A stretch of 55,478 nucleotides of DNA from Halococcus salifodinae DSM 8989 (GTDB lineage: Archaea > Halobacteriota > Halobacteria > Halobacteriales > Halococcaceae): positions 4,835 to 60,312 of the forward strand of contig NZ_AOME01000016.1 of assembly GCF_000336935.1 (NCBI RefSeq). The letters are read 5' to 3'. The first letter of the stretch is position 1. Every line of letters begins with the position of its first letter. The notes beneath the pieces were generated by a model. That model did no database searches. It had not been told where the DNA came from and saw nothing but the letters and a program-made list of their open reading frames with translations. Below, piece after piece: positions 14,004 to 25,020 of this stretch. The translations under genes and the position numbers were made by a program.

Positions 14004-17000
14004 ATGGCTCGTGCGGAGAACACCGAACTGATCGACGACTTCGAGGAGTTCTACCGCAACTACTACCGGAACGAGATCGGCGAGCTCGCGCGGCAGTACC
14101 CCAACGAGCAGCGGTCGCTGTTCATCGACTGGGACGATCTCTATCGGTTCGACTCGGATCTCGCCGACGACTACCGCTCGCAGCCGGGCCAGCTCCAGGA
14201 GTACGCAGAAGAGGCGCTTCGACTGTACGACCTCCCCGTGGACGTGGGGCTCGGGCGCGCACACGTCCGAATCAGGGGGCTTCAGGAGAACACCGAAATC
14301 CGGGAGATCCGGGCACGACATCGTGGCCAGCTCCTCTCGGTCCAGGGAACGGTCCAGAAGGCAACCGACGTACGTCCGAAGATCACCGAGGCCGCCTTCG
14401 AGTGCCAGCGTTGCGGGACGCTCACCCGGATCCCACAGACGGGTGGCGATTTCCAGGAGCCTCACGAGTGCCAGGGGTGTGAGCGCCAGGGCCCCTTCGA
14501 CATCAACTTCGACCAGTCGGAGTTCGTCGACGCTCAGAAAATTCGGGTCCAGGAGAGCCCCGAGGGACTGCGCGGCGGCGAGACGCCCCAGGATATCGAT
14601 GTCCACATCGAGGACGACATCACCGGGAAGGTGACCGCAGGCGACCACGTTCGCGTGACGGGCGTGCTCCATCTCGATCAGCAGGAATCCGGCCGCGAGT
14701 CGACGGCGATGTTCGACGTGTTCATGGACGGCGTGTCGGTCGAGATCGAGGACGAGCAGTTCGAGGACATGGACATCGACGAGGCCGACAAGCGCGCGAT
14801 CGTCGACCTCTCGACCGCCGACGACATCTACGAGCAGATGGTCGCCTCGATCGCGCCCTCGATCTACGGCTACGAGCAGGCCAAACTCGCCATGACGCTC
14901 CAGCTCTTCTCGGGCGTTGCGAAACACCTCCCCGACGGCTCGCGGATCCGCGGTGACTTGCATATGCTTCTGATCGGGGATCCTGGTACAGGCAAGTGTG
15001 TCAAGGGTGATACCAGCGTGACGCTCGCGGACGGCTCGGAGCGACCGATCCGCGACGTCGTCGAATCGAACCTCGACGCACCGACCGCGATCGAGGACGG
15101 CGTTTACGACGAGGTCGACCTTTCGCTGCCGACAATGGGGCCGGATGGGACCATCACCGAAGGACGGGCGACGAAGGTGTGGAAGCGCGAAGCACCGGAG
15201 AGGATGTACCGTCTCCGAACGACGAGCGGCAAAGAGATCGAAATCACACCCTCCCATCCGCTGTTCGTTCAATCGGAAGGACAGTTCTCCGCAACGAGGG
15301 CGTCGGAGCTACACGAAGGGGTCTTCGTTGCGACGCCACGGACAGTGCCGACCGCCGGGGACGACGCGCTCGATGTCGACTATCGCCGGTCGGCGTCGCC
15401 CAATGCCGTTCGGCTGGATCTACCGGCTGATTGGACGCCATTGCTCGCCCGCCTTCTCGGCTACGTCATCGCGGAAGGACACGTCCAGCTCCGTGACGAT
15501 CACACCGGCAGCGTCTACATCACGAACAACGATCCAGAGATCATCGCGGACGTCGCGGCCGCGTACGACTCGCTCGGGGTGAACTACTCGGTCGACGAAC
15601 CTCGTGACGGAAAATCGGCGGAGCGCATCCGATCCTCGTCCGGCGAACTGGTCAGCTTCTTCGAAACTCTCGAACCCGCGATTCTCGAACGCTCGGCCGA
15701 ACAGCGGGTGCCCGACGCGGTACTGCGTGCAACGGCGGAGACGAAACGTGCGTTCCTCCGTGCGTACGTCGACGCGGAAGGCCACGTCTCGACGAGCCAG
15801 CGCGAGCTGGCGATCGCCTCGATGAGCCGCGAGCTTCTCGATGGGGTTCAGTCACTGCTGGTGTCGGTCGGCGTTCAGTCGTCCATCGAACCACGTAACA
15901 ACGGGAGTTACCGGGTCCGTATCAGTGGCGCGGCCTTCGAACGATACGTCGAACGCGTCGGCTTCGTCACCGACCGAAAGGCGGACGCGGCTCACGACTT
16001 CGATGACAGCCCCCACAATACGAACCGCGACATCGTGCCAGACGTGGGCGACGAACTCCGACGCGTCCGGGAAGCGCTTGCGCTCTCGCAGTTCGAGTGC
16101 GGTGTCGCACGGACGACCTATCAGCACTACGAACGTGGCGATCGGAACCCGAGCCGCGACTCGCTGCTGACCGTCGTCGAGGCCTTCGAGGAACGGATCG
16201 AGTGGCTTCGCGAGACGAAACGACGAATCGAGACCGGCGGTTGGGAAGACATCGAATCGGTGAGGGACGAACTGAACGTCTCACAGACCGATCTTGCCGA
16301 CGAGATGGGCGTCGAGCAGACCGCGGTGAGCTACTACGAACGGAACGACGTGGTCCCCGACGGTGGGCGAACGATGGCCGGGAAGAACGCGATCCTCGAA
16401 CGCATCGCGTCGGCCCTCGATGCCGTCGATAGCGTGGCGCGCCTCCGGGACCTCGCCGAAAACGATGTCCGGTGGGATCGGATCGTCTCCATCGAGGAAC
16501 TCACACCCGAGTACGACTGGGTGTACGACCTCGAAGTCGACGACACCCACACGTATCTCTCGAACGGTGTCGTCTCGCACAACTCCCAACTCCTTCAGTA
16601 CATCCGACAAATCGCGCCCCGATCGGTGTACACCTCGGGGAAAGGGAGCAGTTCGGCAGGGCTGACGGCGAGTGCGGTCCAGGACGACTTCGGCGAGGGC
16701 CAGCAGTGGACCCTCGAAGCAGGGGCGCTGGTGCTCGCCGACCAGGGGATCGCGGCGGTCGACGAACTCGACAAGATGAAATGCGTGACTGGCGACACGC
16801 TGGTCCACCTCGGTGATCGAATCGCTCGAATCCGGGACATCGCCCACGAAGCGGTTCGAGACGGCACCATCGAGTCACTCGAGAACGGCCGGAGCATCCG
16901 TGATGTCGACCTCGAGGCGTGGACGATGACCGATGACGGGCGGCTGGTGACGCGTCCCGTGACGGCCATCCACGAGTACGATGCACCCCAGTCGCTCGTC

Positions 17001-19628
17001 GAGGTCTCGCTCTCGACGGGCGAACGGTTGAGTGCGACCGCCGATCACCCGTATTTCGTTTTCGAGGACGGCGAGCGCGTCGAGAAAGCCGCTGCCGACG
17101 TCGAATCGGGGGACTGGGTGTACGTCCCCCGGTCCATCGAGGCACCGGCGACGGACGGCGGGACGCTAAGTCAGCGCGGCGATTCGAACGCCGTTCGGCG
17201 TTCGTTCTCGGACGAAACTCCCGGACAAGATGGCGTCTCGCCATCCCTGGGGAGAGTGCTCGGCTACCTCGCCGGCGATGGGAACCTGTACTACCAGCGT
17301 GATGCCGGCGTCTACGGCATTCGGTTCACGAACACCGAAGAAGAGCTACTGGCGGACTTCGAACGAGCCTGTGAGGGCGCGTTCGACGCGGAGACGGTTC
17401 GACCACCGAGCGAACGGCGTGAGGACGGCGTCGAGACGGTTCGACTGTGTGGCCGGGAGTACGCCGACGTCGTCCTCGAAGCGGGGATGAATCTGGAGAC
17501 GTACGACGGCAAACGCGTGCCCGAGGGGGTCACCGAAGCGTCCCGCGCTGCGAAGGCGGCGTTCGTGCGTGCGTTCGCCGACAGCGAGGGGAACGTCGAC
17601 GGCCGGATGGTGAAACTTTGCTCGGCAAGCCACCAACTGCTACTGGGCGTCAAACACCTCCTGTTGGAGTTCGGTATCTCCTGTCAGATCCAACACCGCG
17701 TGCGGGAGGGAAAACGCGATATCTATCTGCTCGTCATCACCGACGCCGACTCGCTGGCCGCGTTCGACCGGCAGATCGGCTTCACCCTGGATCGAAAACA
17801 GACGGCCCTGACGGAGACGGTCGAGACGGTCAGCGGCGATCGAACGATTCTGGATGTCCTCCCCGACTGCGGGGCCGTGCTTGAGACGTGTCGAACGTCG
17901 CTTCGCCTCCACCAGTCCGAATGCGGGATCGACGACGCCACGTACTGTGACTTCGAGAACGGCGACGCCGATATCTCGTTCCGTCTGGCGCGTGTCGTCT
18001 TGGTGGCGTTCGAAGATCGCAAACGCCGGGCGTCGCTCGCACTCGACGAACTCGACAGCGCCGGGTGGGACGATCTGGAGCGGATTCGGACCACGTTCCA
18101 CGTTTCGCAGTCGGGGCTCGCCGAAGGGACGGGATTCAGCCAGCAACAGGTGTCCCGGCGCTGGGGAGAGGACGAGGGGATGAAGGAGACCGTCGCCGAC
18201 CGGCTCCGATCGGTCCTCGGGTCGGTCGCCGATACGGACCTCAGTCGGTTCACGCAACTGGTCGACGGCGACGTCAAATGGCGACGCGTCGAGACCGTCG
18301 AAACGGTTCCTGCGACGGTCGACGACGACCGTATTCGCCTGCTGGAGGAAGATTTGGCGGACGTCTTGGGCTGTTCGACCGACGAAGCCCGCGAACGAGC
18401 ACGCGCGTTCCGCACGGACGATCCCTCGCCCGCGGGGTGGGACGAACTACGCACGGTTCTCGAGCGATACGGCATCTCGATGACGGCAGCCGCGGACGAT
18501 CTGGGCGTCGATCAGGCGACGGTTTCTCGCTGGTTCAACGGCCACGTTTCGACCGATGAGTTCGAGACTGTCAGGGACGCTGTTCTGGATCGGGCCGACA
18601 TCGTCCGTTCTGCGGCGGTCCGCAAACTGGAGGAGATCGAGGAACGCGAACGACCCAGCGTGTACGACCTGACCGTGGACGGGACACACAACTTCGTTGC
18701 GAACGGCATGATCGTCCACAACTCCGACGACCGCTCGGCGATGCACGAGGCGCTCGAACAGCAGACCATCAGCATCAGCAAGGCGGGCATCAACGCCACT
18801 CTCCAGTCGCGGTGTTCGCTGCTCGGTGCGGCGAACCCCAAGTACGGGCGATTCGACCAGTACGAATCGATCGGCGAGCAGATCGACCTCGAACCGGCCC
18901 TCATCTCGCGGTTCGACCTGATCTTCACGGTGACCGACGACCCCGACCCCGATCGGGATAGAGAGCTCGCCGAACACATTCTCAGAACCAACTACGCTGG
19001 CGAGCTCAACACCCAGCGGACCGAACAGACCGCGGCGAACGTCAGTCAGGCGGAGGTCGATGCGGTCACCGATACGGTCGCGCCCGCGATCGAGCCCGAC
19101 TTGCTCAGAAAATACGTCGCCTACGCCCAGCGCAACTGCTTCCCGACGATGACCGAAGAGGCGAAAGAGGCGATCAGCGATTTCTACGTCGATCTTCGGG
19201 CCGAGGGGGCCGACGAGGACGCGCCGATCCCCGTCACGGCACGGAAGCTGGAGGCGCTCGTCCGGCTCGCGGAGGCATCGGCGCGAGTGCGGCTCGCGGA
19301 TACGGTCGAGATCGAAGACGCCGAGCGCGTCATCGAGGTCGTCCGCACCCAGCTCCAGGATATCGGCGTCGATCCCGAAACCGGGGAGTTCGATGCCGAT
19401 ATCGTCGAAACGGGGACCTCGAAGACCCAGCGCGACCGGATCAAGAACGTGAAGGCACTGATCGCGGAGATCGAAGAGGAGTACGACGCTGGCGCGCCGA
19501 TCGAGGAGGTGCTCGATCGCGCCGAGGAGACCGGAACCGAGCGCTCGAAGGCCGAACACGAACTCGAAAAGCTCCGGCGGCAGGGCGAGGTGTACGAGCC
19601 ACAGACCGACCATCTCCGGACGACCTGA
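14004..19628 (+). CDS. mcm: Replicative DNA helicase MCM interrupted by two inteins
   Basis: A 1874-codon frame. Removing residues 332-860 and 927-1573 leaves a 698-residue MCM, the usual haloarchaeal size. The N-terminal domain has a zinc site CQRCG ... CQGCERQ (about 133-158). The AAA+ core has Walker A GDPGTGK|S, split by intein 1, then Walker B VDELDKMK|S, split by intein 2. After intein 2 come SDDRSAMHEALEQQTISISKAG, sensor-1 LGAANPKYG and arginine-finger LISRFDLIF, and a C-terminal winged helix (about 1790-1874). MCM is the hexameric 3'-5' helicase that unwinds the replication fork. Because both inteins sit in the ATPase centre, the unspliced protein should be inactive, so splicing is required for replication. 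Confidence 0.97.
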   Translation: MARAENTELIDDFEEFYRNYYRNEIGELARQYPNEQRSLFIDWDDLYRFDSDLADDYRSQPGQLQEYAEEALRLYDLPVDVGLGRAHVRIRGLQENTEIREIRARHRGQLLSVQGTVQKATDVRPKITEAAFECQRCGTLTRIPQTGGDFQEPHECQGCERQGPFDINFDQSEFVDAQKIRVQESPEGLRGGETPQDIDVHIEDDITGKVTAGDHVRVTGVLHLDQQESGRESTAMFDVFMDGVSVEIEDEQFEDMDIDEADKRAIVDLSTADDIYEQMVASIAPSIYGYEQAKLAMTLQLFSGVAKHLPDGSRIRGDLHMLLIGDPGTGKCVKGDTSVTLADGSERPIRDVVESNLDAPTAIEDGVYDEVDLSLPTMGPDGTITEGRATKVWKREAPERMYRLRTTSGKEIEITPSHPLFVQSEGQFSATRASELHEGVFVATPRTVPTAGDDALDVDYRRSASPNAVRLDLPADWTPLLARLLGYVIAEGHVQLRDDHTGSVYITNNDPEIIADVAAAYDSLGVNYSVDEPRDGKSAERIRSSSGELVSFFETLEPAILERSAEQRVPDAVLRATAETKRAFLRAYVDAEGHVSTSQRELAIASMSRELLDGVQSLLVSVGVQSSIEPRNNGSYRVRISGAAFERYVERVGFVTDRKADAAHDFDDSPHNTNRDIVPDVGDELRRVREALALSQFECGVARTTYQHYERGDRNPSRDSLLTVVEAFEERIEWLRETKRRIETGGWEDIESVRDELNVSQTDLADEMGVEQTAVSYYERNDVVPDGGRTMAGKNAILERIASALDAVDSVARLRDLAENDVRWDRIVSIEELTPEYDWVYDLEVDDTHTYLSNGVVSHNSQLLQYIRQIAPRSVYTSGKGSSSAGLTASAVQDDFGEGQQWTLEAGALVLADQGIAAVDELDKMKCVTGDTLVHLGDRIARIRDIAHEAVRDGTIESLENGRSIRDVDLEAWTMTDDGRLVTRPVTAIHEYDAPQSLVEVSLSTGERLSATADHPYFVFEDGERVEKAAADVESGDWVYVPRSIEAPATDGGTLSQRGDSNAVRRSFSDETPGQDGVSPSLGRVLGYLAGDGNLYYQRDAGVYGIRFTNTEEELLADFERACEGAFDAETVRPPSERREDGVETVRLCGREYADVVLEAGMNLETYDGKRVPEGVTEASRAAKAAFVRAFADSEGNVDGRMVKLCSASHQLLLGVKHLLLEFGISCQIQHRVREGKRDIYLLVITDADSLAAFDRQIGFTLDRKQTALTETVETVSGDRTILDVLPDCGAVLETCRTSLRLHQSECGIDDATYCDFENGDADISFRLARVVLVAFEDRKRRASLALDELDSAGWDDLERIRTTFHVSQSGLAEGTGFSQQQVSRRWGEDEGMKETVADRLRSVLGSVADTDLSRFTQLVDGDVKWRRVETVETVPATVDDDRIRLLEEDLADVLGCSTDEARERARAFRTDDPSPAGWDELRTVLERYGISMTAAADDLGVDQATVSRWFNGHVSTDEFETVRDAVLDRADIVRSAAVRKLEEIEERERPSVYDLTVDGTHNFVANGMIVHNSDDRSAMHEALEQQTISISKAGINATLQSRCSLLGAANPKYGRFDQYESIGEQIDLEPALISRFDLIFTVTDDPDPDRDRELAEHILRTNYAGELNTQRTEQTAANVSQAEVDAVTDTVAPAIEPDLLRKYVAYAQRNCFPTMTEEAKEAISDFYVDLRAEGADEDAPIPVTARKLEALVRLAEASARVRLADTVEIEDAERVIEVVRTQLQDIGVDPETGEFDADIVETGTSKTQRDRIKNVKALIAEIEEEYDAGAPIEEVLDRAEETGTERSKAEHELEKLRRQGEVYEPQTDHLRTT
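14997..16583 (+). mobile_element. Intein 1 of MCM (Walker A site), LAGLIDADG plus two HTH modules
   Basis: 529 residues, starting Cys-1 (CVKGDTSVTL) and ending SNGVVSHN before Ser+1. Block B is TPSHPLF. Two LAGLIDADG motifs are visible, LLGYVIAEG (about 15453-15479) and AYVDAEG (about 15763-15783), so the homing endonuclease looks intact, though the acidic residue is Glu in both. After the endonuclease come two HTH-like repeats: about 16045-16200 (VREALALSQFECGVARTTYQHYERGDRNP) and about 16255-16350 (VRDELNVSQTDLADEMG). The splice blocks F and G then follow (VYDLEVDDTHTYLS). The HTH pair is shared with intein 2, so the two inteins are related. Confidence 0.93.
16782..18722 (+). mobile_element. 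Intein 2 of MCM (Walker B site), LAGLIDADG plus three HTH modules
   Basis: 647 residues, beginning CVTGDTLVHLG and ending VANGMIVHN before Ser+1. Block B is TADHPYF. The LAGLIDADG motifs are VLGYLAGDG (about 17257-17283) and AFADSEG (about 17572-17592). Two HTH repeats (about 17870-18040 and 18070-18200) align by eye with those of intein 1 (compare HQSECGIDDATYCDFENG with SQFECGVARTTYQHYERG, and FHVSQSGLAEGTGFSQQQVS with LNVSQTDLADEMGVEQTAVS). A third HTH (about 18430-18590, TAAADDLGVDQATVSRWFNG) sits in an extra segment before block F and is absent from intein 1. Cys-1, His-Asn and Ser+1 are all present, so splicing should work. Confidence 0.93.
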
Positions 19629-20511: not shown

Positions 20512-20555
20512 GTAGATAACTACATTCTATGAACTTAATAGTTTATGATTTGTCG
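20512..20555 (-). promoter_or_regulatory. AT-rich promoter region of tfb
   Basis: A strikingly AT-rich stretch in a GC-rich setting directly upstream of the TFB start. On the minus strand it contains AAACTATTAAG about 30-40 bp before the ATG, a plausible BRE/TATA. I cannot fix the transcription start. Confidence 0.45.
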
Positions 20556-20576
20556 TTCGAGTCGTTCGATGACCGA

Positions 20577-21002
20577 TTACTGCGAATCGCGAACGTCGTC
20601 GGCGATCCGATCGAGATCGTCGTCGGCGAGATCGGGCCGGTCGCCAGCGACGACGTGGATCGGCGCGCCGCCGTCGCCCTCGAACCGCGGGATCACGTGG
20701 CCGTGGACGTGTGGCACCTCCTGGCCGGCGGCCGAGCCGTTGTTGAACGCCACCGTGGTGGCGTCGGCGTCGACCGCCGCCTCGACTGCCGGCGTCAGCC
20801 GGTGGAGCGCAGCGAAGACATCGCTAGCGAGGTCCTCGGAGAGGTCGTCGAGGCGCTCGTGGTGGTCGTTGGGAACGACGAGCGTGTGGCCCGGCGCGAG
20901 TGGGTTCGCGTCGAGAAAGGCGGTCACGGTGTCGGTTTCGTGGACGATGCGGCCGGGGATCTCGCCGGCGATGATTCCACAAAAGGGGCAGTCGGCGGAC
21001 AT
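20577..21002 (-). CDS. HIT-family nucleotide hydrolase
   Basis: A 141-residue histidine-triad protein. The active site is HVHGHV (98-103) preceded by NNGSAAGQEVPH, and the N-terminus CPFCGIIAGEIP is the standard Hint/HIT start with a possible zinc pair C5/C8. HIT proteins hydrolyse nucleoside phosphoramidates or dinucleotides; the exact substrate is not determined. The start is the ATG at 21002; the longer frame upstream is Arg/Ser/Thr-rich shadow sequence. It lies 58 bp downstream of the uracil-DNA glycosylase gene on the same strand. Confidence 0.93.
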   Translation of the reverse strand: MSADCPFCGIIAGEIPGRIVHETDTVTAFLDANPLAPGHTLVVPNDHHERLDDLSEDLASDVFAALHRLTPAVEAAVDADATTVAFNNGSAAGQEVPHVHGHVIPRFEGDGGAPIHVVAGDRPDLADDDLDRIADDVRDSQ

Positions 21003-21060
21003 GGCTGATCCATCGCGCGCACGAGGCAAGAACGTTCTGCCGTGGGTCGTTCTGCGGGCG

Positions 21061-21690
21061 TCAGCCGATCCCGGTGAGCGTCTCGTCGATCGCAGCGAGA
21101 TACGATTTGTAGGTATAATCGAGCCGCGACACCCAGACTTCTTGGTAGGAGGGGTGGAGCACCGGGACCAGTGTGGTGTCGAGACCAGGCAACGAAACGG
21201 GTTCGAGCACCGATTCCAGAAATCCGTCGATCGCCCGGTTTTCGGTCGCCAGCAGACTCTCGGTCGCGTGCTTACCCGTCGCAACTACGGCCCGCGGCTC
21301 GACCCTTCCGATCTCGCGTTCGAGGTACGGTCGGCAGTTCGTGCGTTCGTCGGCGGTGGGTTCGCGGTTCGAACCGTCCTCACCTTCAGGGAAGCACTTC
21401 ACAGCGTTCGTGAAATAGAGTTCGTCGGGGTCGTAGCCGAGATCGGCGAACAGTTCCCGAATTTTCCGGCCGGAGTGACGTGCTGTGTAGGCCATCCCGG
21501 TCCAGTTCCCGCCCTGCCAGCGATCGGCCTCGGGCGTGCCGGCCCCTGGCGCTTCGCCGACCACCACGAGATCGGCGTCGAGCGAGCCGTTGCCCCACGA
21601 GATGCACTCGCGAGAGTCGACCAGCGCGGGACAGCGCCGGCAGTCGGCGGCGAGGGCGTTCCTCGACTCCGGATCCGGGAACTCGGGCAC
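21061..21690 (-). CDS. Uracil-DNA glycosylase, Fe-S family (4/5-like)
   Basis: A 209-residue base-excision repair enzyme. GEAPG (45-49) is the water-activating motif and HPSY (179-182) the DNA-intercalation motif. Four cysteines, C17/C20, C99 and C119, match the [4Fe-4S] pattern of family 4/5 enzymes (CxxC ... KCFP ... NCRPYL). It removes uracil arising from cytosine deamination. It is divergent from IleRS, with 114 bp between the two starts, so the two promoters share that gap. Confidence 0.9.
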   Translation of the reverse strand: MPEFPDPESRNALAADCRRCPALVDSRECISWGNGSLDADLVVVGEAPGAGTPEADRWQGGNWTGMAYTARHSGRKIRELFADLGYDPDELYFTNAVKCFPEGEDGSNREPTADERTNCRPYLEREIGRVEPRAVVATGKHATESLLATENRAIDGFLESVLEPVSLPGLDTTLVPVLHPSYQEVWVSRLDYTYKSYLAAIDETLTGIG

Positions 21691-21804
21691 GGTCGGATCA
21701 GCGGTCGGCGCGGGCTTGAGTCTGGTCCCTGGCTCCGGTCGCGATCCCGCTGGCCGGTCTGCCCAACCGAGGCTGCTTTAGTCCCCGGGACGGATACCAC
21801 TGCC

Positions 21805-24800
21805 ATGAGCAGGTTCGAGGACGTCGCGGATCGGTACGATCCCGACACGGTCGAGGAGCGGGTATTCGACCACTGGGACGAGACCGACGCCTACCAGCAG
21901 ACGAAAGACCACCGCGCGGACGAGGAGCCCTTCTTCTTCGTCGACGGTCCCCCCTACACTTCGGGTGCAGCCCACCTCGGCACGACGTGGAACAAGACGC
22001 TAAAGGACGCCTACATCCGGTATCACCGAATGCGGGGCTACGACGTGACCGACCGTCCCGGGTTCGACATGCACGGCCTCCCGATCGAGACGAAGGTCGA
22101 GGAGAACCTCGGCTTCGAGAACAAGAAGGACATCGAGGCGTTCGGGATGGAGCCGTTCATCGAGGAGTGCAAGGAGTACGCCGAGGCCCAGTTAGAAGGC
22201 CTCCAGTCCGATTTCGAGTCCTTCGGCGTCTGGATGGACTGGGAAAACCCCTACAAAACTGTCTCTCCGGAGTATATGGAGGCGGCGTGGTGGGGGTTCG
22301 AACAGGCCGCCGACCGGGGCCTCGTCGAGCAGGGGAAGCGCTCGATCACCCAGTGTCCGCGGTGTGAGACCGCGATCGCCAAAAACGAGGTCGAGTACCA
22401 CGAGGTCGAGGACCCCTCGATCTACGTGGAGCTCCCGCTCCGCGAGCGCGAGGGGAACCTCGTGATCTGGACGACCACCCCGTGGACGGTCCCCGCGAAC
22501 GCCTTCGTCGCGGTCGACGAGGACGTAACGTATCAGGAGGTCCGCGCCGAAAGAGACGGCGAGAGCGAGGTGCTCTATCTCGCGGCCGACGTGGTCGAGG
22601 AGGTCCTGCAGAAGGGCCGCTATGAGGACTACGAGGTGCTCGACGAGTTCGACGGGAGCGAGATGCTCGGCTGGGAGTACGACCACCCGCTGGCCGAGGA
22701 AGTGCCCGACCACGCCGACGGCGACGGTGCGGGACAGGTGTACCACGCCGATTACGTCGAGGTCGACAGAACTGGTCTGGTCCACTCCGCCCCCGGTCAC
22801 GGTCAGGAAGACTTCGAGCGGGGCGAGGAGCTCGGCCTCGACGTGTTCTGTCCGGTCGAGGGCGATGGCGTCTACACCGACGAGGCCGGAAAATACGCCG
22901 GCGAGTTCGTCCGCGACGCCAACGACGGGATCATCGCGGACCTCGACGAGAAGGGACTGCTGCTCGCCGAGGAGACCTACGTCCACGACTACGGCCAGTG
23001 CTGGCGATGCGACACGGACATCGTGTTCCTCGCTACCGACCAGTGGTTCATCACCGTCACCGACATCAAAGACGAACTGCTCGCCAACATCGAGGACAGC
23101 GAGTGGCATCCCCCCGAAGCGCGCGACGAGCGCTTCCGGAACTTCGTCGAGGACTCGCCCGACTGGAACGTCTCCCGTCAGCGCTACTGGGGCATCCCCG
23201 TCCCGATCTGGACGCCCGAGGGTGAGGAGGACCGCTCGGAGAACGGAGTGACCGACGACGAAAGCGAGATGGTCGTGGTCGGAACGCGCGAGGAGCTCGC
23301 CGAGCGGGTCGATCAGGACGTCGATCCCGACGCGATCGACCTCCACCGGCCCACCGTGGATGACCTGACGATCACCGAGGACGGCACCACGTACACCCGC
23401 GTCCCGGACGTGTTCGACGTCTGGCTCGACTCGTCGGTGGCGTCGTGGGGCACTCTCGACTACCCCGGCGAGACGGAGGCGTTCGACGAACTCTGGCCCG
23501 CCGACCTCATCATGGAGGCCCACGACCAGACCCGTGGCTGGTTCTGGTCCCAGTTGGGAATGGGCACCGCGGCGCTCGGCGAGGTTCCCTACGATGAGGT
23601 GTTGATGCACGGCTACGCCAACATGCCCGACGGGCGCGGGATGTCGAAGTCGAAGGGTATCACGATCGAGCCCGGTGAGATCGTCGAGCGCCACGGGGCC
23701 GACGCGATGCGGCTGTTCCTGCTGTCGGTCACCCCGCAAGGCGACGACATGCGCTTCTCGTGGGATGAAACGGAGGAGATGGAGCGTACGCTCAACATCC
23801 TCTGGAACGTCTTCCGATTCCCGCTGCCGTACATGCGCCTCGACGGGTTCGATCCCCAGGAGACGACCCTGGCTGCTGTCGAGGATGCGCTCGAACGCGA
23901 GGATCGGTGGGTGCTCTCGCGACTTCAGACTGTGAAAGCGGAGATGGCCGACGCATGGGCCGACTTCCGCCAAGACCGTGCGCTCGACGCCCTGCTCGAT
24001 TTCGTCGTCGAGGACGTCTCCAGATTTTATGTCCAGGGGGTCCGCGAGCGGATGTGGGAGGAATCGGACAGCGACTCGAAGCGCGCGGCGTACGCCACGT
24101 TCTACCGCGTGCTGGAGGAAGTCGTCGCGCTGCTCGCGCCGTACGCGCCGTTCGTTGCCGAGGAGATTTATGGCACGCTCACCGGCGATGCGGGCTTCGA
24201 CACCGTCCACATGTGTGACTGGCCCGAACCCGACGACGACCTCCGCGACCCCGATCTCGAACGCACGGTGGCGGTCGCGCGCGCCGTCGAGGAGGCGGGT
24301 TCGGCCGCCCGCCAGCAGGCCGAACGCAAGCTCCGGTGGCCCGTCACTCGGGTCGTGGTCGACGCCGAGAGCCAGGCGGTCGCGAGCGCGGTCGACGACC
24401 AGCGCGATCTCGTCGCCGACCGATTGAACGCCCGTCGGGTCGAGCTGATCGACCCCGAAAACCGGTGGGACGAACTCACATACAGCGCCGAGGCCGACAT
24501 GAGCCTGCTCGGCCCCGAGTTCGGGGATCGTGCGGGAGAAGTGATGACCGCGCTCAACGAGGCCCGTGTCGAGGAGCCCACGCTCGCGGCACTCGAAACC
24601 GCCGTCGCAGAGCAAATGGGCGAGACGGTTAATCTCACCGAGGAGATGGTGACGATCGTGACCGAGACGCCGGACGGAGTCGCCGCGGCCGGGTTCGATG
24701 TCGAGGGCGGCGGCACGGTTTACGTCGATACCGCACTCACTGAGGACATCGAGAGCGAGGGCTACGCTCGCGACGTCATTCGCCGAATCCAGGAGATGCG

Positions 24801-25020
24801 CAAGGAGCTCGATCTCGATCTCGAAGAGCGGATTCGCGTCGAGTTCGCCGTCGCCGACGACCGGGTCGGCGATCTCGTCCGCGAGCACGAGGCCCTGATC
24901 GCCGAGGAGGTCCGTGCCGACGAGTTCGGGGCGGTCGAGGACGGCCACCGCCGCGAGTGGGACGTCGAGGACACCACGGTGGAGATCGCGGTCAAGCCGC
25001 TCGCCGACGTGCGAGCGTAG
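21805..25020 (+). CDS. ileS: Isoleucyl-tRNA synthetase
   Basis: A 1071-residue class I synthetase, the usual archaeal length. The HIGH-type motif reads HLGT (57-60) after FFVDGPPYTSGAA, and the KMSKS loop reads GMSKSKG (about 613-619). An editing (CP1) domain lies between, with TTTPWTVPANAF near residue 230. WYFVT-type elements and a C-terminal anticodon-binding region follow. The start is ATG 21805; the frame stays open for 420 codons upstream only because of codon bias, and that stretch overlaps the HIT and glycosylase genes on the other strand. It charges tRNA-Ile with isoleucine and edits valine. Confidence 0.97.
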   Translation: MSRFEDVADRYDPDTVEERVFDHWDETDAYQQTKDHRADEEPFFFVDGPPYTSGAAHLGTTWNKTLKDAYIRYHRMRGYDVTDRPGFDMHGLPIETKVEENLGFENKKDIEAFGMEPFIEECKEYAEAQLEGLQSDFESFGVWMDWENPYKTVSPEYMEAAWWGFEQAADRGLVEQGKRSITQCPRCETAIAKNEVEYHEVEDPSIYVELPLREREGNLVIWTTTPWTVPANAFVAVDEDVTYQEVRAERDGESEVLYLAADVVEEVLQKGRYEDYEVLDEFDGSEMLGWEYDHPLAEEVPDHADGDGAGQVYHADYVEVDRTGLVHSAPGHGQEDFERGEELGLDVFCPVEGDGVYTDEAGKYAGEFVRDANDGIIADLDEKGLLLAEETYVHDYGQCWRCDTDIVFLATDQWFITVTDIKDELLANIEDSEWHPPEARDERFRNFVEDSPDWNVSRQRYWGIPVPIWTPEGEEDRSENGVTDDESEMVVVGTREELAERVDQDVDPDAIDLHRPTVDDLTITEDGTTYTRVPDVFDVWLDSSVASWGTLDYPGETEAFDELWPADLIMEAHDQTRGWFWSQLGMGTAALGEVPYDEVLMHGYANMPDGRGMSKSKGITIEPGEIVERHGADAMRLFLLSVTPQGDDMRFSWDETEEMERTLNILWNVFRFPLPYMRLDGFDPQETTLAAVEDALEREDRWVLSRLQTVKAEMADAWADFRQDRALDALLDFVVEDVSRFYVQGVRERMWEESDSDSKRAAYATFYRVLEEVVALLAPYAPFVAEEIYGTLTGDAGFDTVHMCDWPEPDDDLRDPDLERTVAVARAVEEAGSAARQQAERKLRWPVTRVVVDAESQAVASAVDDQRDLVADRLNARRVELIDPENRWDELTYSAEADMSLLGPEFGDRAGEVMTALNEARVEEPTLAALETAVAEQMGETVNLTEEMVTIVTETPDGVAAAGFDVEGGGTVYVDTALTEDIESEGYARDVIRRIQEMRKELDLDLEERIRVEFAVADDRVGDLVREHEALIAEEVRADEFGAVEDGHRREWDVEDTTVEIAVKPLADVRA

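Follow-up and report, generated by a model that had tools for sequence, protein, structure and literature searches.

The MCM helicase gene of Halococcus salifodinae DSM 8989 harbors two in-frame inteins whose HTH modules, at a probability of roughly 0.85, are accessory DNA-recognition domains of the LAGLIDADG endonucleases that aid homing. According to this proposal, the saddle of the endonuclease would grip an empty mcm allele at its cleavage site while the HTHs would contact flanking bases, setting both affinity and the choice of site, and these contacts would help the intein to copy itself into the empty allele. The second intein features a further HTH, housed in a hairpin loop within its splicing domain, and this HTH probably has the same purpose; when an endonuclease is lost, the HTHs would usually be lost with it. 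Three observations speak for this role: the HTHs co-occur with the endonuclease, the recognition helix of the first HTH is conserved among inteins that invade the same P-loop codons of MCM, and the closest structural relative of both inteins, TliVMA, places its HTH accessory domain in the same position. The suggestion of the initial annotation that the modules help the endonuclease to find its site is therefore well supported; contact between the HTHs and the homing site is our inference.

The gene lies in a window of 55,478 nucleotides (the whole stretch of DNA analysed) and encodes a precursor of 1874 codons, with joined exteins of 698 aa. Its features are as follows, with a slash marking the splice junction.

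14004..19628, + strand: MCM helicase gene with two in-frame inteins (open reading frame; Pfam MCM, MCM_OB and MCM_lid)
14997..16583, + strand: intein 1 at the MCM-a site (GDPGTGK/S), 529 aa, residues 332-860 (CVKGDT start, VSHN/S end; Intein_splicing E 2.7e-21)
14997..15341, + strand: intein 1 Hint-N splicing half (TIGR01445, AlphaFold2)
15429..15995, + strand: intein 1 LAGLIDADG endonuclease, motifs LLGYVIAEG and LRAYVDAEG (LAGLIDADG_3 E 2.9e-28; E160/E261 in homologues)
16029..16235, + strand: intein 1 HTH-A with a long linker helix (HTH_3 at 354-404; helices 351-413)
16242..16418, + strand: intein 1 HTH-B, Cro/C1-like (second HTH_3 stretch; P22 C2 repressor profile match)
16461..16583, + strand: intein 1 Hint-C splicing half (TIGR01443; strands 491-528)
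16782..18722, + strand: intein 2 at the DELDKMK/S site, 647 aa, residues 927-1573 (CVTGDT start, IVHN/S end; Intein_splicing E 1.8e-23)
16782..17132, + strand: intein 2 Hint-N splicing half (TIGR01445, AlphaFold2)
17235..17828, + strand: intein 2 LAGLIDADG endonuclease, motifs LGYLAGDG and VRAFADSEG (LAGLIDADG_3 E 7.6e-22; acids D166 and E269)
17853..18059, + strand: intein 2 HTH1, homologous to HTH-A (profile alignment; helices 364-426)
18066..18230, + strand: intein 2 HTH2, homologous to HTH-B (profile alignment; helices 429-483)
18267..18311, + strand: intein 2 first strand of Hint-C, GDVKWRRVETVETVP (aligned to NDVRWDRIVSIEEL of intein 1; strand 498-510)
18327..18650, + strand: intein 2 HTH3 domain in the Hint-C hairpin loop (HTH_3 at 556-590, E 1.2e-10; helices 516-623)
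18657..18722, + strand: intein 2 end of Hint-C, VYDLTV...IVHN (TIGR01443)

Intein 1 directly follows the Walker A lysine, and intein 2 follows DELDKMK, 66 extein residues downstream; the Pfam intein model finds no other splicing domain in the genome. Their positions correspond to site A (Hvo 335) and site C (Hvo 401) of PMC3972481 and to MCM-a and MCM-d of PMC10643990, respectively, with residue 401 flanking the C-terminus of MCM-d. The second site is likewise MCM-d in InBase naming. Our survey labels this site c and uses d for the site that lies another 14 residues downstream.

Domain content, placement, co-occurrence with the endonuclease, conservation and structure models were all obtained by computation. 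Intein_splicing, LAGLIDADG_3 (four stretches) and HTH_3 (three stretches; E 1.6e-25 for the whole precursor) exceed the Pfam cut-offs, and HTH_3 scores 57.7 bits in intein 1 and 41.7 in intein 2 against a gathering cut-off of 23. Both inteins belong to the Hint family, as they start with Cys, end in the pattern C...HN/S and score above cut-off for Intein_splicing, TIGR01445 and TIGR01443; their predicted models match known intein structures, and the intact MCM frame around them suggests that both splice in vivo. Each endonuclease carries two LAGLIDADG motifs with conserved acids, and E160 and E261 of intein 1 are invariant or nearly so among homologues. The coordinates of the two LAGLIDADG inteins in MCM given by the initial annotation are exact, and the observation itself is confirmed.

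AlphaFold2 models, built from alignments of this MCM protein with related loci, place HTH-A at 351-380 and HTH-B at 416-450 in intein 1 (pLDDT 91.8) and HTH1 at 364-392, HTH2 at 429-460 and HTH3 at 553-586 in intein 2 (pLDDT 82.6). The count of two and three modules that had been read from the letters therefore stands on Pfam, profile alignment and confident structure models. Pfam run on intein 2 alone marks only HTH3, so that HTH1 and HTH2 rest on the model and on homology to intein 1. The two inteins align across nearly their full length (30% identity, E 1e-48; profile-profile E 3e-71), which makes their first two HTHs homologous; that these align had been noted initially.

TliVMA (7qss) is the top PDB fold match for both inteins, with TM scores normalised by target length of 0.81 for intein 1 and 0.70 for intein 2. 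This intein, at the VMA-b site, shares with the MCM inteins a Hint domain, a LAGLIDADG endonuclease and an HTH accessory domain between the endonuclease and Hint-C, and it shares with intein 1 the insertion after the Walker A lysine (PMC10643990). Its accessory domain controls the use of an alternative cleavage site; deleting or grafting the domain alters the site that is cut, and deletion leaves the Hint and endonuclease folds undisturbed (PMC8966425). The host protein differs, being the V-ATPase of a hyperthermophile; no extra HTH inside Hint-C is described, and the sequence match to the inteins here ends before the accessory domain. The isolated TliVMA accessory domain also added little affinity, which counts against a homing role (PMC8966425). 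PI-TkoII (PDB 2cw7), the second and fourth fold match, likewise contains an HTH-like accessory domain (PMC8966425), in a DNA polymerase host and with a further domain IV.

Homing itself is documented at the same two sites of the same gene. The MCM-a and MCM-d endonucleases of Hfx. mediterranei, also of the LAGLIDADG type and also found in the double-intein state, cut the empty site and home in vivo (PMC10643990); the main text of that paper makes no mention of an HTH. Haloferax MCM-a inteins examined here, which are others than that of Hfx. mediterranei, contain HTH-A and thus one HTH rather than the two of intein 1. We found no description of HTHs in haloarchaeal MCM inteins in the literature searched, the coverage of which was incomplete.

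Across relatives, HTHs track the endonuclease. We surveyed 100 MCM loci from haloarchaeal genomes together with the window, recovering 172 inteins at four sites; the genomes were chosen mostly for long MCM frames, and the counts are therefore not frequencies in nature. HTH_3 is present in all 47 endonuclease-bearing site-a inteins (29/29 in the two-HTH group and 18/18 in a group of 466-477 aa) and in 27 of 29 at the second site, relative to 6 of 47 endonuclease-less inteins, the 41 without it being the mini-inteins at sites a and c. Fisher tests of the association give p 1e-14 and 1e-10, uncorrected for kinship. None of the 23 site-b inteins contains HTH_3, and only 1 of 20 does at site d, where the profile still aligns to site a across the HTH region. 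The modules had been described as unlike most inteins; within this group, however, MCM inteins with an endonuclease carry them as a rule. Such HTHs are a known and widespread kind of module, and what is unusual is a single placement, that of HTH3 in Hint-C.

Two observations from the survey stand apart. The site-b inteins feature a possible HTH-like stretch, FGTLRDAAAALDLSEDFIYDxL, located before rather than after the endonuclease and without a Pfam call, and a MAG labelled as a Mollicutes bacterium (L188) contains a haloarchaeal MCM with two inteins and is most likely mislabelled or a contaminated bin.

The initial annotation had also proposed that DNA binding by the modules ties replication licensing to a signal, such that an HTH bound to DNA (an origin, damaged DNA or its own gene) would speed or block splicing and so set the amount of active MCM. 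There are grounds for the idea: both inteins interrupt the ATPase centre, so that splicing is needed for MCM activity (PMC3972481), HTH3 is located inside the splicing domain, some endonuclease-less inteins keep their HTHs, and PMC5790916 and PMC6195587 report conditional splicing for inteins of other replication and repair proteins. The modules, however, are not kept wherever the intein is kept. The hosts of the 41 HTH-less mini-inteins at the same two sites need spliced MCM, so the splicing domain appears to work without HTHs, and in five congeneric genomes (G044, G209, G236, G250 and G256) the MCM frame is not long enough to contain an intein. Because many MCM inteins splice without an HTH and congeners lack the inteins altogether, a licensing switch is unsupported and was ruled out as the main reading; conservation of HTH-A is explained equally well by a conserved target, and we consider such control of splicing improbable. 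By and large, the modules look like the usual DNA-recognition subdomains shared by this group of MCM inteins, an outcome that the initial annotation had named as grounds for dropping the regulatory idea.

The accessory-domain reading must also accommodate inteins in which the two parts have come apart. Six site-a inteins of 268-339 aa contain HTH_3 and lack LAGLIDADG_3. The endonuclease was lost while HTH-A was kept in at least four lineages (G079/G269, G001/G007, G099 and G166), both HTHs being retained in two. This is a new point and it counts against a homing role. Among the matches listed from 391 genomes, there was no additional full-length intein of this kind. Retained HTHs of this sort, together with the HTH in the splicing domain of intein 2, could in principle reflect DNA-responsive control of MCM splicing, which we again judge improbable; we regard these inteins as steps in a process of decay, and a residual role of their HTHs in splicing or DNA binding is a minor possibility.

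In the endonuclease-less inteins L101 and L106, short CGCGA matches flank the endonuclease deletion, which stops immediately upstream of HTH-A, and a single deletion event fits because eleven derived HTH-A bases are common to both loci. The HTH pair of L101 versus L106 has a dN/dS of 0.126, similar to that of Hint-N (0.16). We had at first read this ratio as selection on the HTHs after endonuclease loss; the claim was dropped because much of the difference between L101 and L106 is shared with endonuclease-bearing relatives and the private changes show no constraint. The same ratio speaks for a reading of the HTHs as a structural spacer on which the Hint halves depend for folding, with DNA binding incidental, as do inteins, cited in PMC10643990, that need the endonuclease or linker region in order to splice. 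Yet HTH-less mini-inteins arose several times, with at least five independent changes forced on the tree. Furthermore, the private L101/L106 branches carry 4 silent and 8 replacement changes in HTH-A relative to 5 and 3 in endonuclease-bearing relatives, which looks more like relaxation, although the numbers are small, and conserved HTH residues have been lost in two of the four lineages (L046 and L134). A spacer function is thus unlikely.

Loss also proceeds in the reverse order, which is again a point against accessory DNA recognition. The site-d intein of L108 (936-2108; 391 aa) keeps both LAGLIDADG motifs, and the HTH-like accessory region that follows them is gone; the site-d intein of L149 is shortened to 381 aa.

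The initial annotation positioned every HTH after the endonuclease and ahead of the C-terminal splice block. This is true of HTH-A and HTH-B, and hence of all accessory HTHs of intein 1, and of HTH1 and HTH2; HTH3, however, is inside Hint-C. Strand 498-510 of intein 2 aligns to the stretch with which Hint-C of intein 1 begins, and since helices 516-623 lie between this strand and strand 626-632, HTH3 is an insertion in the splicing domain rather than part of a linker. The DNA recognition region of PI-SceI is not known to be an HTH and probably occupies a different place in Hint than HTH3. The two are alike in that an accessory DNA-recognition part is inserted in Hint itself (PMC8966425).

A gap of 123-128 residues between the Hint-C motifs, around HTH3, occurs in 41 of 43 endonuclease-bearing second-site inteins, the pattern being unmatched in the other two. 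Shorter second-site inteins (n = 22) have the motif in two cases, where the gap measures 19 and 37 residues; the others, as read from their sequences, leave no room for HTH3. No HTH3 was found in endonuclease-less second-site inteins, which weighs further against control of splicing, and L159 has lost both its first LAGLIDADG motif and HTH3 while HTH1 and HTH2 are retained. The presence of HTH3 in Hint-C of nearly every endonuclease-bearing MCM-d relative, on top of stacked HTHs, is new.

The same modules extend beyond the haloarchaea. A search of 295 genomes of the phylum with the HTH-AB segment matched 36, in open frames of MCM-like length. Seven matches from two other archaeal families (f15 and f16) were read, and each is an MCM-a intein that has HTH-A in the same position; the recognition helix of this HTH is near-identical in most and degenerate in L243, and both HTHs are present in L241. 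HTH-A is therefore probably an old part of the MCM-a intein, and its recognition helix may be conserved because the targeted P-loop codons of MCM are themselves conserved. Viral contigs searched for relatives yielded only distant or partial matches. Separately, a MAG labelled Candidatus Nanohalarchaeota (L209, 330-2645) contains an MCM-a intein match at 44% identity, a hint of intein transfer between haloarchaea and their small symbionts or of mis-binning.

This distribution also bears on whether the HTHs are autoregulators, acting as transcriptional repressors of the host gene or of the intein itself. They are of the Cro/C1 type, the HTH-B profile resembles the phage P22 C2 repressor (E 4e-4), and WhiA, in which a LAGLIDADG fold is joined to an HTH according to PMC11701221, is among the fold matches of intein 2. 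WhiA is, however, a free-standing bacterial transcription factor and not an intein. At E 1e-6, the 295-genome search returned no short stand-alone regulator with HTH-AB, only frames of MCM length, and the HTHs track the endonuclease. Autoregulation is most improbable.

Overall, HTH accessory domains, of which a few crystal structures of inteins had given examples, are near-constant in the commonest haloarchaeal MCM homing inteins and also occur in other archaea. Extra HTHs can stack or lodge within the splicing fold, and endonuclease and HTH parts are lost in differing orders. Together, these inteins represent a natural series of parts for engineering the site choice of intein endonucleases, and those that keep HTHs in the absence of an endonuclease are a clean test set for the gain of a second role.

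Finally, downstream of the MCM gene, the similarity of the 1491-aa frame at 20545-25020 (+ strand) to class I (I, L, M, V) tRNA synthetase domains does not begin until residue 440. Its true start is likely MSRFEDVADRY near codon 422, and the upstream remainder is probably a chance open frame.
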